64,000 bases of DNA from an uncultured Paracoccaceae bacterium (lineage in GTDB: Bacteria > Pseudomonadota > Alphaproteobacteria > Rhodobacterales > Rhodobacteraceae), in the NCBI GenBank assembly GCA_947503925.1, contig CANNFQ010000003.1, positions 62,001-126,000 on the forward strand, given 5' to 3'. The notes beneath the pieces are model-generated. The model did no database searches, had not been told where the DNA came from, and saw only the letters and a list, made by a program, of their open reading frames with translations. Position 1 is the stretch's first letter. Every line of letters begins with the position of its first letter. A program made the translations under genes and the position numbers. Below, piece by piece: positions 8,202-17,125 of this stretch.

Positions 8202-9134
8202 ATGAACTGGATCACCAACTACGTTCGCCCCACGATCAACTCGCTTTTTTCGCGGCGCGAGGTACCCGATAACCTGTGGACGAAATGCGATGATTGCGGA
8301 ACCATGCTGTTCCACCGCGAATTGGCGGACAATCTGAACGTCTGCACCAATTGCGATCATCATATGGCCATCGGTGCCCGTGACCGGCTGACATCCATCT
8401 TTGACGGTGGCGTCTTTGTTGAGGTTGCCGTCCCTGACCCGGTCGCCGATCCGCTGCATTTCCGCGATCAAAAACGCTATACGGACCGCATCAAGGAAGC
8501 CCGCAAGAAAACCGGCGAAAAAGACGCCATGCTGGTGGCCGAAGGCGAGATGGGCCGTACCGGCGTGGTCGTCGCTGTGCAGGATTTTTCCTTTATGGGC
8601 GGGTCCATGTCGATGTATGTGGGCAATGCGATTGTTGCTGCCGCTGAGCGCGCAATTGCCCTCAAACGCCCGCTGATCCTGTTTTCCGCCGCTGGTGGCG
8701 CCCGCATGCAAGAGGGTATTCTGGGCCTGATGCAGATGCCCCGCACCACCATCGCCGTGCAGATGCTCAAAGAGGCCGGTCTGCCCTATATCGTTGTGCT
8801 GACCCATCCAACGACGGGCGGCGTGACCGCCTCTTACGCGATGCTCGGTGATGTGCAGATTGCCGAACCCAATGCGCTGATCGGCTTTGCCGGCGCGCGG
8901 GTTATCGAACAGACCATCGGGGAAAAGTTGCCCGAAGGGTTCCAGCGTGCCGAATATCTGCTCGATCACGGCATGCTGGACCGGGTCACCAAGCGCACCG
9001 ATTTGAAGGACGAGTTGGTGACCATCGTCCGCCTGCTGATGAAACAAAGCGCGCCGGTCAAAGGCGATCTGCCCGCCCCGGAAATCACGTCGGAAGCAGC
9101 TGACGAGCTGGACGCGGCGGAAGACGCCAAGTGA
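8202..9134 (+). CDS. accD: Acetyl-CoA carboxylase carboxyltransferase subunit beta
   Basis: The 310-residue protein transfers the carboxyl group from carboxybiotin to acetyl-CoA together with AccA, the first step of fatty acid synthesis. An N-terminal zinc ribbon is visible with CxxC pairs at 29/32 and 48/51. The crotonase-like core carries [12 protein letters not shown] and the [15 protein letters not shown] segment that forms the oxyanion pocket. The acidic C-terminal tail ([13 protein letters not shown]) is typical of alphaproteobacteria. It overlaps folC by four bases (GTGA), the usual accD-folC order. Confidence 0.97.
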
Positions 9135-12769: not shown

Positions 12770-13073
12770 GACAAAACCTTCCATTGCGGGCGGTGGTTTA
12801 CAATCCCTCCTTATGCGCGCTGCCCGATCAGGTGGTTTGTGAAAACAGGCCCGGCACGTTACGTGCTTTCCCAGGCGGAGGGAGGAGGCCGAGGGCAATG
12901 GCCTTGGGCGAAGCTTAGCAAAGTCGTCCGGGCGCGCAAGTCGGCTCATGCTCATTTCCCGGCCGGATGGTCCGCGATGCGCGTTGAATGGCAGGTTCGG
13001 CAGGCCCGCCGTCCGCCTCTTGCAGTTTGTTATAGTATAAAATAACAATCTCTCAGACGGTGGAGGTCGATCG
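12770..13073. other. Intergenic region between the DnaB-like gene and zur
   Basis: These 304 bases separate two divergent genes. The right end holds the Zur-box-like palindrome and probable promoter of the zinc operon. The rest (12780-13015) has open frames on both strands without ribosome sites or recognisable products, and I see no RNA gene in it. Confidence 0.5.
13020..13048 (+). promoter_or_regulatory. Zur-box-like palindrome over the zur operon promoter
   Basis: An AT-rich palindrome stands out in GC-rich DNA. TTGTTAT (13027-13033) is mirrored by ATAACAA (13042-13048), with an inner GTTATA-G-TATAA core at 13029-13040. Alphaproteobacterial Zur boxes are built around GTTATA..TATAAC, so the match is good but not perfect. 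A possible promoter is TTGCAG (13020-13025), a 17-base spacer, then TAACAA (13043-13048), which places the palindrome across the spacer and -10. The zur start codon is 26 bases downstream, so autoregulation with zinc repression is inferred. Confidence 0.75.
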
Positions 13074-13460
13074 ATGAGAAAGCGTGCAGCAACCCGGCAA
13101 GATGATGTGTTGAACCTGCTGAGTGCCTGCGAAAGGCCGATGACCGCCTATCAGATTCTGGAACGACTTCAGGCAGTTGAGCCGGATATTGCCCCGCCGA
13201 CCGTGTATCGCACCCTGTCCGCCCTGACCGATCAGGGCCGCGCGCATCGGCTGGAATCGATCAAGGCCTTTGTCCCCTGCCGTTGCAACCATGTCGAAAG
13301 CGTGCCGGTCCTCGCGATATGCGAAGATTGCGGATCGGTCGAGGAACATGATGGCAGTGATCTTTTGCCGAAACTCACGGCACTGACGGATCGAAACGCC
13401 TTTCGGGCGGACCGGCATATCGTTGAAATCCATGGGCAATGCGGCACCTGCGCTGCCTGA
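13074..13460 (+). CDS. zur: Zinc uptake regulator Zur (Fur family)
   Basis: The 128-residue repressor has the Fur-family winged helix (PTVYRTLSALTDQGRAHRLES) followed by a dimer and metal-binding half. Cysteines in CRCNHVES, AICEDCGSVEE and the terminal GQCGTCAA form the structural zinc site and a possible regulatory site. Assignment to Zur rather than Fur, Mur or PerR rests on the following zinc-uptake genes and the Zur-box-like palindrome upstream. A GGTGGAGG site precedes the ATG. It lies 30 bases before the ZrgA-like gene. Confidence 0.88.
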   Translation: MRKRAATRQDDVLNLLSACERPMTAYQILERLQAVEPDIAPPTVYRTLSALTDQGRAHRLESIKAFVPCRCNHVESVPVLAICEDCGSVEEHDGSDLLPKLTALTDRNAFRADRHIVEIHGQCGTCAA

Positions 13461-13490
13461 ACCCTCCCTTCCAACCATCACGGATTCTCC

Positions 13491-14147
13491 ATGAAACACG
13501 CACTGTCCCTTATTGCTCTTGTCGCAGCCATGCCTGCATTCGCCGAAGATACACGTCAGCTGGACGCCCACGAACATGGTGTTGGTGCTCTTGACATCGC
13601 CATTGACGATAAGGTTGTTGCGATGGAGTTCCATGCGCCGGGTGCCGATATCGTCGGGTTCGAATATGCCCCGAAAAGTGACGCCGATCTTGCCGCTATT
13701 GAGGCCGCGATCACAACGCTCAGCGCACCGCTGGATCTGTTCGCCCTGCCGGACGCCGCAGCCTGCACAGTGACCGAGGCGCAGGCCGAACTGGAAAGCG
13801 AGGAGGCCCATGATGAACATGATGAGGAACATCATGACGCGCATGGCGAAGAACATCATGATGAACATGACGATGATCACGCGAAAGAAGGTCATGATGA
13901 TCACAAGAAACATGGCGATCAGGACCACGAAGACCACGCGGAACATGGTGATGCGGTGAGCCATACGGAATTCCACGCGGAATATGTGCTGATCTGCGAC
14001 AATCCGGGTGCGTTAACTTCGATCAGTTTCGCCTATTTCGATACCTTCCCGAATGCGCAAGAGGTCGAGGTGCAGGTTGTCACGGCAACCGGTGCGCAGG
14101 CGTTCGAAGTGGGACGTGACGCCCCCATCTTAGAGTTGGGGCGCTAA
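13491..14147 (+). CDS. zrgA: Periplasmic His-rich zinc-binding protein (DUF2796, ZrgA-like)
   Basis: The 218-residue protein has a signal peptide of about 18 residues (cleaved after PAFA). An N-terminal QLDAHEHGVG motif and a beta domain with two cysteines (92 and 169) match DUF2796. Between residues 107 and 158 there are about 16 histidines mixed with Asp and Glu, a likely zinc-collecting loop. DUF2796 proteins are the A component of the Zrg zinc-uptake system described in Vibrio cholerae. Here it precedes an ABC pair and two DUF3299 genes, as in that system. The role as zinc chaperone is inferred. Confidence 0.85.
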   Translation: MKHALSLIALVAAMPAFAEDTRQLDAHEHGVGALDIAIDDKVVAMEFHAPGADIVGFEYAPKSDADLAAIEAAITTLSAPLDLFALPDAAACTVTEAQAELESEEAHDEHDEEHHDAHGEEHHDEHDDDHAKEGHDDHKKHGDQDHEDHAEHGDAVSHTEFHAEYVLICDNPGALTSISFAYFDTFPNAQEVEVQVVTATGAQAFEVGRDAPILELGR

Positions 14148-14153
14148 GCGCAG

Positions 14154-14849
14154 ATGATGGGTGCCGTTCTTGAACTGTCAGATATCGGCTATCGATGGCC
14201 CGGGCGGGCTGCGTTTTCGCTGACCGTGCCGGACCTGACGGTTCAAAGGGGTGAATCGGTTCTACTGCTTGGGGAAAGCGGTTCCGGGAAATCGACACTC
14301 TTGTCGCTGATCTGTGGCACGATTCTGCCGGACCGGGGTACCGTACGTATCGCAGGCACCGAAGTTTCGAAATTGTCAGCCCGTGCGCGTGACAGGTTCC
14401 GGGCGGAACAGATCGGCGTTATCTTTCAGCAGTTCAATCTGCTCCCCTTTGGATCGGTCACGGATAACATCCTGCTGCCGCTCCGCTTTGCACCGCAACG
14501 TCGCAAGCGTGCCGGGGACGGGGCAGCGGAGGCAGTGAAGCTTTGCACAGCGCTCGGCCTGCCAAAAGACATTATTCAAGCGAAGGCCACCACCTTGAGC
14601 GTTGGACAACAGCAACGTGTTGCCGTCGCCCGCGCGCTTATCGGTCAGCCGCCGCTGATCATCGCGGATGAACCCACATCAGCCCTTGATGCGGATAGCC
14701 AGACAGCCTTTCTGGACCTTTTATTTGCGCAGACTGCCAAACATCAAACCGCGCTTTTGATGGTCAGCCATGATCCACGGCTGGGCGACCGGTTTGACCG
14801 CGTCATCCGAATGGAAGACATCGCAGTGATTGAACGGGCAGCCGCATGA
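14154..14849 (+). CDS. ABC transporter ATP-binding protein of the Zrg-like zinc system
   Basis: The 231-residue ATPase has Walker A GESGSGKST (~40-48), a Q-loop in IFQQFNLLPFG, the signature LSVGQQQRVAVA and Walker B LIIADEPTSALD. It belongs to the MacB/LolD class, which couples ATP hydrolysis to periplasmic movements of an FtsX-like partner rather than classic import. The start may be the ATG at 14154 or 14157. It follows zrgA by six bases and overlaps the permease gene by four. The zinc role comes from context. Confidence 0.9.
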   Translation: MMGAVLELSDIGYRWPGRAAFSLTVPDLTVQRGESVLLLGESGSGKSTLLSLICGTILPDRGTVRIAGTEVSKLSARARDRFRAEQIGVIFQQFNLLPFGSVTDNILLPLRFAPQRRKRAGDGAAEAVKLCTALGLPKDIIQAKATTLSVGQQQRVAVARALIGQPPLIIADEPTSALDADSQTAFLDLLFAQTAKHQTALLMVSHDPRLGDRFDRVIRMEDIAVIERAAA

Positions 14850-16096
14850 TTTTCCGGCTCGCCATTGCCTCGCTTTTTGCTCGGGCTCTGACCGTGGGCA
14901 TGACTGTCCTTGCGATTGCGCTGTCGGTCGCCCTGTTTCTGGGCGTGGAAAAAGTGCGAACCGGGGCCAAGGCCAGCTTTGCCGATACGATTTCCGGCAC
15001 CGATCTGATTGTCGGCGCGCGTTCCGGATCGGTGCAACTGTTGCTTTATTCGGTGTTTCGCATTGGCAATGCCACCAATAATGTGACTTGGGAAAGCTAT
15101 CAGGACATTGCCGCGCGTCCTGATGTGGAATGGATTGTCCCGATTTCATTGGGCGACAGCCATCGCCAGTTCCGTGTGATGGGTACAAGTTCGGCTTTTT
15201 TCGAACATTACAAATACCGGCAAGGCAGATCGCTGGCGGTCGCGGATGGGGTCCTCATGGATGACCTGTTTGATACCGTGATCGGGGCCGATGTCGCCGC
15301 GACGTTGGGCTATAGCGTGGATGACCCGATTGTCGTCGCCCATGGGCTGGCATCATTTACTGAACACAAGGATCAGCCGTTCCGCGTATCGGGCATTCTG
15401 GAAAAGACCGGAACGCCAGTGGACCGCACCGTGATCGTCAGTATGGAGGCGATTGAGGCAATCCATGTTGACTGGCAAAGCGGCGCGCAAATGCCCGGCC
15501 AGTCCACGCCGGTTGAGGTGATCCGGCAGATGGATCTCACCCCAAAGGCCGTCACAGCCGCGCTTGTTGGGGTCGAAAGCCCATTGCAGACCTTTGCCTT
15601 GCAACGCGCAATCAATGAATACCGGCAAGAGCCCTTGCTGGCCATCTTGCCCGGTGTCGCCTTGCAAGAGCTTTGGGGGATTGTCGGGATTGCGGAAACG
15701 GCGCTGCTGGCAGTGTCTGCCATGGTGGTTGTGACCGCGCTGATCGGAATGATGGCCACAATTTTTTCCAGCCTCAATGAACGCCGCCGCGAAATGGCAA
15801 TCTTTCGGGCCATGGGTGCGCGACCCGCCACCATTCTGTCCATGCTGGTTTTTGAGGCCATGGTGATGGCGGCCGTTGGTGCGTTGTTTGGGCTGCTGTT
15901 CCTTTATCTGGGTCTGATCATCGCCCAGCCGATCCTTGACAGCGCATTTGGCATGTGGCTGCCCATTGACGCGCCGACATTGCGGGAGTTCTGGGTTATC
16001 GTTGCCGTGGTTTGTGCTGGCGCAATCGTGAGCCTTGTTCCCGCTTTGCGGGCTTACAGAATGTCGGTTGCTGATGGTATGATGGTCAAAACGTGA
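14846..16096 (+). CDS. MacB/FtsX-type ABC permease of the Zrg-like zinc system
   Basis: The 416-residue protein has one N-terminal membrane helix (around LTVGMTVLAIALSVALFLG). A large periplasmic domain spans ~40-275. Three C-terminal helices follow, with the FtsX-family RRREMAIFRAMGARP cytoplasmic loop between the first two. This topology is typical of mechanotransmission ABC systems such as MacB and LolCE. It probably works with the ATPase and the periplasmic proteins of this operon. Its start overlaps the ATPase stop by four bases (ATGA). Confidence 0.88.
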   Translation: MIFRLAIASLFARALTVGMTVLAIALSVALFLGVEKVRTGAKASFADTISGTDLIVGARSGSVQLLLYSVFRIGNATNNVTWESYQDIAARPDVEWIVPISLGDSHRQFRVMGTSSAFFEHYKYRQGRSLAVADGVLMDDLFDTVIGADVAATLGYSVDDPIVVAHGLASFTEHKDQPFRVSGILEKTGTPVDRTVIVSMEAIEAIHVDWQSGAQMPGQSTPVEVIRQMDLTPKAVTAALVGVESPLQTFALQRAINEYRQEPLLAILPGVALQELWGIVGIAETALLAVSAMVVVTALIGMMATIFSSLNERRREMAIFRAMGARPATILSMLVFEAMVMAAVGALFGLLFLYLGLIIAQPILDSAFGMWLPIDAPTLREFWVIVAVVCAGAIVSLVPALRAYRMSVADGMMVKT

Positions 16097-16118
16097 TGCA
16101 GAGATTGAGGTATCTCAA

Positions 16119-16619
16119 ATGATGAATCGCAGAGCTACATTGATGCTTTTGTCGGCCACGGTTGCGGCACCGAAGGCGGCACTTGCTGCCACGGCACGGG
16201 AAATCGAATGGGATGACCTGATCCCCCCTGGCGTGCCCTATTCCGAGATCATCGGTGAGGGAGAGATCGATCTGGTCAATGATCAGTGGAACCCGATCTA
16301 TGACGCCAACGGGATCAAGCTGAATGAAGAGCTGAACGGCGCCTATATCCGGATGCCGGGCTTTATCATTCCCTTTGACGTCAGCGCAGAGGGCGTCACG
16401 AATTTCATGCTTGTGCCTTATGTCGGGGCCTGCATCCATACCCCGCCGCCGCCCGCCAACCAGCTGGTCATGGTCAACGCCGCGGAACCTTGGCCCGGTG
16501 ACCAGCTTTGGGATCCGGTTTGGGTCACGGGCGTGATGCGTACGCAGCTTCAGTCAACTGGCCTTGGCCAGACAGGTTATTCCATCGCGGCTGACGAGAT
16601 GGAGGTCTATGTCTGGTGA
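16119..16619 (+). CDS. Periplasmic DUF3299 protein, first of a tandem pair
   Basis: The 166-residue protein has a signal peptide (cleavage near ALAATA) and then the REIEWDDLIPPG opening and RMPGFIIPFD strand. The DUF3299 hallmark VPYVGACIHTPPPPANQ follows, with its single Cys and His. DUF3299 proteins accompany ZrgA and MacB-like ABC genes in Zrg-type zinc systems. The conserved Cys and His could bind zinc, which is inference. It lies 22 bases after the permease gene and overlaps the next DUF3299 gene by four bases. Confidence 0.88.
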   Translation: MMNRRATLMLLSATVAAPKAALAATAREIEWDDLIPPGVPYSEIIGEGEIDLVNDQWNPIYDANGIKLNEELNGAYIRMPGFIIPFDVSAEGVTNFMLVPYVGACIHTPPPPANQLVMVNAAEPWPGDQLWDPVWVTGVMRTQLQSTGLGQTGYSIAADEMEVYVW

Positions 16620-17125
16620 CCCGCATTTTGCAACGCCGCGCGGTTCTCGCCGGAATGGCAGCTGCCGCAGTTTTACCCGGCCCGGCGCAGGCCGAGGAAG
16701 TCATTGACCTTGATTGGGACGACCTGCTGCCGCAAGGCCAAGTGACGGTTCCCAACGCATTGCGCGGTTTGCTTGAACATGATGAAACTGCGCCGCTTTT
16801 CAGCGAGCAGCCTGCATCAACAGGCGTCAGGACGGACTGGAACGGACAGATCGTGCGTCTGCCGGGCTTCATCGTTCCCATTGATTATAGCGGGACCGGC
16901 GTCACCGCCTTCATTCTGGTTCCTTATGTGGGTGCGTGTGTGCATGTGCCACCTCCGCCCGCCAATCAGCTGGTTTTTGTCACCACCCCAACACCTTATG
17001 AAAGCAAAGGGCTGTTTGAGCCGGTCAATGTCATCGGGATGTTTGGCGTCTCATCGATTTCGACTCAATTGGCCGAGATCGGCTATGCGTTGTCAGCCGA
17101 CAGGATTGAACCCTATCGCAGTTAA
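16616..17125 (+). CDS. Periplasmic DUF3299 protein, second of a tandem pair
   Basis: The 169-residue paralogue of the preceding protein starts at a GTG overlapping its stop by four bases. It has an RR-containing signal peptide (cleavage near GPAQA), the opening DLDWDDLLPQG, RLPGFIVPID and the same VPYVGACVHVPPPPANQ motif. The two copies are clearly diverged, so they probably have distinct roles, perhaps as a heterodimer. It is the last gene of the zinc operon. A possible terminator hairpin lies about 220 bases downstream. Confidence 0.88.
   Translation: MTRILQRRAVLAGMAAAAVLPGPAQAEEVIDLDWDDLLPQGQVTVPNALRGLLEHDETAPLFSEQPASTGVRTDWNGQIVRLPGFIVPIDYSGTGVTAFILVPYVGACVHVPPPPANQLVFVTTPTPYESKGLFEPVNVIGMFGVSSISTQLAEIGYALSADRIEPYRS

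Follow-up and report, generated by a model that had tools for sequence, protein, structure and literature searches.

A zinc-starvation operon of the Zrg kind, probably governed by a private repressor, is present in an uncultured Paracoccaceae bacterium of the Rhodobacterales. It spans positions 13028-17125 on the + strand of a 64,000-nucleotide stretch of contig CANNFQ010000003.1 (assembly GCA_947503925.1, positions 62,001 to 126,000), termed here the window. The single operon consists of an operator, zur, zrgA, genes for an ATP-binding cassette (ABC) ATPase and a permease, and two DUF3299 genes. Sequence comparison places it in the established Zrg system. The Zrg operon itself has already been described; what is new is the regulation, i.e., a linked second Zur with an operator of its own. 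In open-licence PubMed Central literature, no report of a zrg-linked second Zur or of its operator was found.

Affiliation with the Zrg system

A sequence-only reading of the window had proposed a Zrg-type operon made up of a palindrome, zur, a histidine-rich protein with a signal peptide, an ATPase, a permease and two DUF3299 proteins, with overlaps or short gaps between the genes. All of these parts are present on a single strand. The coordinates give gaps of 6-30 bp and two overlaps (in gene order 30 bp, 6 bp, a 4-bp overlap, 22 bp and a 4-bp overlap). The Zrg assignment is borne out by the ZrgA protein, which scores 226.5 bits against the NCBIfam ZrgA equivalog (cut-off 185) and 178.1 bits against Pfam ZrgA (cut-off 27.4), and which matches the solved structures of PA4063 and Vibrio cholerae ZrgA. 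About 16 histidines had been counted in this protein; the preprotein has 21, of which 16 lie within residues 100-160. With the zinc-site and disulfide positions taken from the published structure (PMC9820375), the site-1 ligands in the window are H27, H29, E58 and H158, and cysteines C92 and C169 are also present. Among 136 dereplicated ZrgA sequences, H27, H29 and E58 are conserved in 98%, H158 in 99% and the two disulfide cysteines in 98-99%.

The arrangement that defines a Zrg operon, zrgA adjoining a split MacB-like ATPase and permease together with DUF3299, is found in the window. It had been suggested that genomes be searched for co-occurrence of these families, and the outcome agrees with the proposal. 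Of 299 sampled genomes from the phylum, 44 had ZrgA above the cut-off and 60 had DUF3299; a hand count gave 42 genomes with both, against an expectation of about 9. Of 40 further loci from this phylum, 28 have zrgA-ATPase-permease-DUF3299 in that order on one strand. The remaining 12 either have DUF3299 absent, inverted or at another place, or do not have the pump genes next to zrgA.

In V. cholerae, Zrg and ZnuABC are needed for growth at low zinc (PMC9820375), and in V. parahaemolyticus Zrg is induced by zinc deficiency (PMC9817125). The Vibrio zrg mutants support a role in zinc acquisition (PMC9820375, PMC9817125). The genes of the operon had been equated with ZrgABCDE, and the family assignment stands, but ZrgD of V. 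parahaemolyticus is annotated as DUF2607 and only ZrgE as DUF3299 (PMC9817125); the two DUF3299 genes are therefore not simply ZrgD and ZrgE. A Pfam scan of the six operon proteins gave no DUF2607 match.

Two side observations concern the family at large. Four relatives have, between the permease and DUF3299, a gene for a secreted-looking protein of ∼350 amino acids whose mature start is near a CxFHxYxP motif (L051:9561-10649, L074:3655-4710, also L054 and L061). It has no Pfam name, and NCBIfam, tried for one member, gave none either. Among plasmid records with a ZrgA match, 56 of 59 are from Phaeobacter.

A distinct operator in zur-first operons

The palindrome at 13028-13047 has two mismatches to a 20-bp zrg-zur box, TGTTAYTTTATAAARTAACA, and its first 15 bp have one mismatch to the ordinary Zur box. 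It is the sole match in the window to the 20-bp pattern at up to three mismatches (shuffle mean 0.00) and to the 15-bp pattern at up to two (shuffle mean 0.01), and genome-wide it is the sole place for the 20-mer at up to three mismatches.

At this threshold the 20-mer precedes 31/31 distinct intact zur-first operons and 7/106 zrg operons that lack zur. Fisher's test gives 2.4e-24, a value that overstates independence because the upstream sequences are related. For these counts, eight loci that repeat a contig or second copy and four with less than 60 bp upstream were dropped, which left 140 rows; two rows with identical upstream DNA were then dropped and one locus with a decayed zur (L072) was set aside, to give 137. 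In the recount, zur of L150 and of L179 was taken to begin at the MRK start. Shuffled upstream stretches with up to four mismatches to the 20-mer numbered 0/660. Of the 32 operons for which position was counted, 23 have the 20-mer 45-48 bp upstream of zur. Across 11 whole genomes it occurs at 13 places at up to two mismatches, 12 of them preceding zrg, and at 16 places at up to three, of which 12 are zrg operators (one genome, G013, has two operons).

The ordinary 15-bp box, at up to three mismatches, is found before 49 of the 106 zrg operons without zur. Its inner half-site, TAACA, is intact in 1 of the 31 zur-first operons. Given this and the presence of the 20-mer in all 31, the view that the palindrome is simply an ordinary Zur box was rejected. 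The Zur-box-like palindrome of the sequence-only reading does exist, as a 20-bp variant and not as an exact ordinary box.

Two comparisons lie outside the counted class. In locus L072 (genome G075), the linked zur is reduced to an 87-amino-acid remnant (8390-8653) before zrgA in which the four site-A cysteines (see below) are gone, and the upstream box is near-canonical, TGTTATCTTATAACA. Phaeobacter inhibens P66, which was not used to write the motif, carries zur-zrg on the 227-kb plasmid pP66_a (L329) with the 20-mer (two mismatches) 45 bp before zur. P. inhibens SC52, which has no linked zur, displays a 15-bp box with two mismatches 127-141 bp before zrgA. As a separate matter, the two zur-zrg operons of G013 (L048, L050) are similar and are found ∼209 kb apart on one contig.

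The operon-linked Zur

The linked Zur matches Pfam FUR with 31.2 bits (cut-off 23.1). NCBIfam Zur is its best family (E 2.5e-23) and E. coli Zur its best Protein Data Bank match (4mtd, E 3.4e-18). The N-terminus is ∼35-40 residues shorter than that of the Zur linked to znu. Invariant in 38 linked Zurs are C83, C86, C123 and C126 of site A and H58, C69 and E91 of site B, as well as Y26 and R46, which correspond to Tyr45 and Arg65, the residues of E. coli Zur that read bases (PMC4219657). The 38 rows include duplicates of one contig; L072 was excluded from them, and the short L251 was excluded from the ordinary Zurs (29/30 used).

The expectation of a full set of zinc ligands in the linked Zur was rejected, as only seven of the eight align. 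Two further invariant residues, C71 and H73, lie close to the position of the absent site-B histidine and could replace His96 of the E. coli protein. The residue pattern points to a zinc sensor whose sensing site is altered.

In a phylogenetic tree, the linked Zurs group in a single clade that is distinct from the other Zurs (support 99/96), on long branches. With its long branches and weak inner support, the tree was used only for the separation of this clade, and its linked group shares one identical row (L289 = L151) with the group labelled adjacent. Linkage to zur is not one conserved arrangement everywhere, an idea that was tried and rejected: at L261, L265, L269, L271 and L272, the Fur-family genes near zrgA fall outside the linked clade.

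Other zinc loci in the genome

A second Zur, of 171 amino acids, is encoded next to znuA and precedes the znu ATPase and ABC-3 permease. At 20.7 bits it is below the Pfam FUR cut-off of 23.1, and it is named Zur because of its place at znu and its likeness to the window Zur. The genome has znuABC plus a second ABC locus with a ZnuA-family protein; the proteins of the zrg operon match neither a ZnuA-type binding protein nor an ABC-3 permease, both of which are encoded elsewhere. Genome-wide, the 15-bp Zur box occurs at six places at up to two mismatches. One is the operon described here, one is just before the znu-linked zur in the znuA-zur start region, and one is 46 bp before a COG0523 (cobW) gene; the remaining three were not linked to zinc. 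The positions count here and not the number, which is no proof by itself because a control pattern had 10 places.

A znu-type Zur match is present in 192/198 genomes of the host's taxonomic family. Two or three matches were obtained in all 10 family genomes with an intact zrg-linked zur, but also in 14 that lack one; an additional Fur-like match is thus no distinguishing mark of this linkage. Repression of the operon by its own first gene, as put forward in the sequence-only reading, gains comparative support; the picture is refined by a second Zur at znu and by an operator that differs from the ordinary Zur box.

The pump and the DUF3299 proteins

The permease contains FtsX and MacB_PCD domains. 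Its predicted structure (mean predicted local distance difference test score, pLDDT, 85.9) comprises four helices, the first two of which flank a periplasmic domain, and Foldseek matched the model to MacB (E 2.3e-17), LolCDE (E 1.5e-16) and HrtB(A) (E 3.6e-12). With four helices, a periplasmic domain, both Pfam domains and a MacB/Lol fold in the model, it has the features of the MacB superfamily, and the mechanotransmission ABC pump that had been proposed is supported to that extent.

Conserved histidines are found in the permease. In a set of 73 sequences less than 85% identical, H166, H174, H207, D104 and D193 are present in 73/73 and H106 in 70/73; 69 of the 73 were aligned for the model. 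The four histidines are predicted to fall between helix 1 and helix 2, in the periplasmic part. Six distantly related permeases, whose genomes gave no ZrgA match, retain H166, H174 and H207 but carry Phe at position 106; the notion that all of these histidines are Zrg-specific was rejected for that reason. Among the permeases compared, H106 is found only in the Zrg type, and the other three in a wider permease group. In two loci (L326 and L327, genomes G212 and G479), a zrg-like permease is split over two frames, representing either a broken gene or a sequencing error; DUF3299 is present and a ZrgA match absent in both genomes.

The two DUF3299 proteins score 128.2 and 129.1 bits (cut-off 22), the second is 38% identical to the first, and the domain matches the solved PA4066 (4hsp). 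A motif RRxx[LFMIV] precedes the domain in 105/121 DUF3299 proteins with the anchor motif, compared with 2/92 ZrgA proteins. This motif suggests export by the twin-arginine translocation (Tat) pathway in the family and the named loci, which are those counted; several Pseudomonas-type DUF3299 relatives are without the Tat-like motif.

Two of the six distant permease relatives adjoin small proteins that have a CPFC motif and a Tat-like N-terminus (L318:3691-4254, L319:6942-7478) and a profile similar to that of DUF3299 (hhalign probability 80, E 1.4e-05), and one of the six adjoins a weak DUF3299 match (29.2 bits). Because these ZrgA-less relatives adjoin DUF3299-like proteins, the pump and a DUF3299-like partner may represent an older unit to which ZrgA was a zinc-specific addition.

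Proposed function

When zinc is ample, the linked Zur would bind the single 20-bp operator and shut off itself and the pump. At low zinc, repression of both the repressor and the pump would be lifted at once, separately from the other Zur with its 15-bp boxes. ZrgA would collect periplasmic zinc, as shown for homologues whose ligands are conserved here. The ATPase and four-helix permease would form a mechanotransmission machine of the MacB type, with the permease histidines as a plausible site of zinc docking or transfer and the DUF3299 proteins, on their co-occurrence, as putative partners of the pump. By analogy with the Vibrio mutants, the net effect would be a gain of zinc under starvation. 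Zinc acquisition is the likeliest function by analogy, because the ZrgA homologues bind zinc, the operators are of Zur type and the Vibrio mutants point the same way; zinc may cross the inner membrane through this pump or by another route.

A joint picture combines two insulated zinc circuits with a pump that handles bare metal at a histidine site of its own, and it is offered tentatively, with somewhat less than an even chance of being correct as a whole. In it, one Zur with 15-bp boxes would run znu and the COG0523 GTPase, and a Zur with an altered site, perhaps with another set point, would run zrg only, through a 20-bp operator that has lost the inner half-sites of the 15-bp box. Bare-metal handling is a mode not described for the MacB superfamily in the literature consulted.

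Several observations weigh against the main reading, a private switch on a zinc-acquisition operon, as regards both the regulator and the pump. The linked Zur scores 82.6 bits against an NCBIfam Zur equivalog cut-off of 167, and is filed as Zur-like and not as an equivalog on that account. The fourth site-B ligand, His96 of E. coli, aligns with Ser in the linked Zurs, which makes the metal and the set point uncertain. The class that supplied the 20-mer is also the one in which most of the counting was done, and the loci are related. Four of its 16 places at up to three mismatches are not zrg operators (one with two mismatches, three with three), and a reversed control pattern also gave one place in the 11 genomes. 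With just one mismatch to the ordinary box, the window operator may be bound by the other Zur as well. Before 57/106 zur-less zrg operons, in some of which the gene start is unsure, the searched stretch showed no 15-bp box at up to three mismatches. The TM-scores of the permease fold matches are moderate, not exceeding 0.58 by query length, and loop 169-175 of the model has pLDDT <50. No import route is known for a MacB-type permease.

Alternative interpretations

It is conceivable, although rather improbable, that ZrgBC carries nothing across the inner membrane and only passes zinc from one periplasmic protein to another, such as from ZrgA to ZnuA or a zinc enzyme, by ATP-driven motions. MacB-family machines act on the periplasmic side. 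The fold matches to MacB, LolCDE and HrtB and the predicted periplasmic location of the four histidines would fit such a role, but V. cholerae zrgA matters in a strain without znuA (PMC9820375), and ZnuA is therefore not the sole receiver.

The direction of Zrg pumps is disputed in print, with import argued for Vibrio and export for Pseudomonas. In the second case the pump would remove a metallophore or metal-metallophore that is harmful under zinc starvation, as proposed for PA4063-PA4066. This is an unlikely explanation of the operon, even though the published genetics of the Pseudomonas homologue (PMC11481552) count in its favour and so against zinc gain, the MacB-type fold predicted for the four-helix permease is in keeping with it, and the host genome has four nonribosomal peptide synthetase (NRPS) condensation domains (contig C14, 52772-66153). 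Against it, no MacA-like adaptor or TolC-like channel is encoded among the six operon and four flanking proteins, the part of the genome searched for them, and in 35 loci of the host's family no gene family is widely shared next to the operon. Further, NRPS condensation domains are absent from 11 of 15 zrg-bearing family genomes, the same-genus G295 included, which makes a pyochelin-like product improbable as the shared substrate, although the domain test is coarse and blind to other metallophores. In Vibrio, mutation of zrg impairs growth when zinc is limiting (PMC9820375). As to the C14 domains themselves, G295 yielded no match to them.

That the znu-linked Zur controls the operon, with the linked zur redundant and the 20-mer representing two overlapping ordinary boxes for two dimers, is quite doubtful: the single mismatch to the ordinary box in the first 15 bp speaks for it, as do 18 of 50 ordinary boxes before zur-less operons with an extra half-site (up to one mismatch) 5 bp out (shuffles ∼2.5%), so that the 20-bp spacing exists without linked zur too, but the inner half-site is almost always lost in zur-first operons, the linked zur and the 20-mer co-occur, the decayed zur has a near-canonical box, and 12 of the 13 closest places of the 20-mer are zrg operators.

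Comparison with known systems

The operon shares with Vibrio ZrgABCDE the ZrgA protein, the MacB-like split ABC pump, DUF3299 and, probably, Zur control (PMC9820375, PMC9817125). It differs in having zur as first gene, another operator, two DUF3299 genes with Tat-like signals, and no DUF2607 match. PA4063-PA4066 of Pseudomonas aeruginosa has the same four families in the same order and is Zur-regulated (PMC11481552, PMC8561739); as printed, that operon has no zur and one DUF3299 gene, and it was proposed to encode a pyochelin-cobalt exporter (PMC11481552).

With E. coli Zur, the linked Zur has in common the four site-A cysteines, three of four site-B ligands and the base-reading Tyr and Arg (PMC4219657). 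The 15-bp motif of the Paracoccus denitrificans Zur (PMC5387054) resembles the boxes at the znu locus of the window genome. In contrast to both proteins, the linked Zur forms a separate clade, is shorter at its N-terminus, carries C71 and H73 and goes with a 20-bp operator. The permease has the four-helix FtsX-type design and large periplasmic domain of MacB, LolCDE and HrtBA, but no adaptor is present in the operon and the invariant periplasmic histidines are its own; unlike MacB, ATPase and permease are split.

Gene layout and neighbouring sequences

Coordinates of the operon are given in Table 1. The nearest genes scanned on either side are unrelated and on the opposite strand, a DnaB-like ATPase before the operon and DUF2189 and AFG1 after it. 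A sigma-70 scan found no site before zur; the region has one, on the other strand, where 2.1 are expected by chance. Terminator-like sites are near chance (8 vs 5.3 expected, sd 2.4). At other zrg loci, the eight neighbouring or upstream genes scanned are of mixed families, including one CorA and one ABC auxiliary lipoprotein.

Table 1. Features of the zur-zrg operon, in window coordinates
Feature	Position	Strand	Basis or remark
Operator palindrome TGTTATAGTATAAAATAACA	13028..13047	+	46 bp before zur start codon; motif comparison
zur (operon-linked Zur), 128 aa	13074..13460	+	Pfam FUR, NCBIfam, PDB profile match
zrgA (DUF2796), putative periplasmic zinc-binding protein	13491..14147	+	Pfam and NCBIfam ZrgA
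ABC ATPase, MacB/LolD/DevA type	14154..14849	+	ABC_tran
Permease, split MacB type	14846..16096	+	FtsX + MacB_PCD
DUF3299 protein 1 (PA4066/ZrgE family), Tat-like signal peptide NRRATL	16119..16619	+	DUF3299 domain
DUF3299 protein 2, Tat-like N-terminus QRRAVL	16616..17125	+	DUF3299 domain

Significance

The permease histidines allow a direct mutational test of the disputed direction and mechanism of Zrg. A private Zur, together with a relative whose zur has decayed and whose box is near-canonical, represents a clean natural case of a second metal sensor gaining a target. As P. inhibens, a cultured marine bacterium, carries zur-zrg on a plasmid, the questions of both the pump and the switch are testable there.

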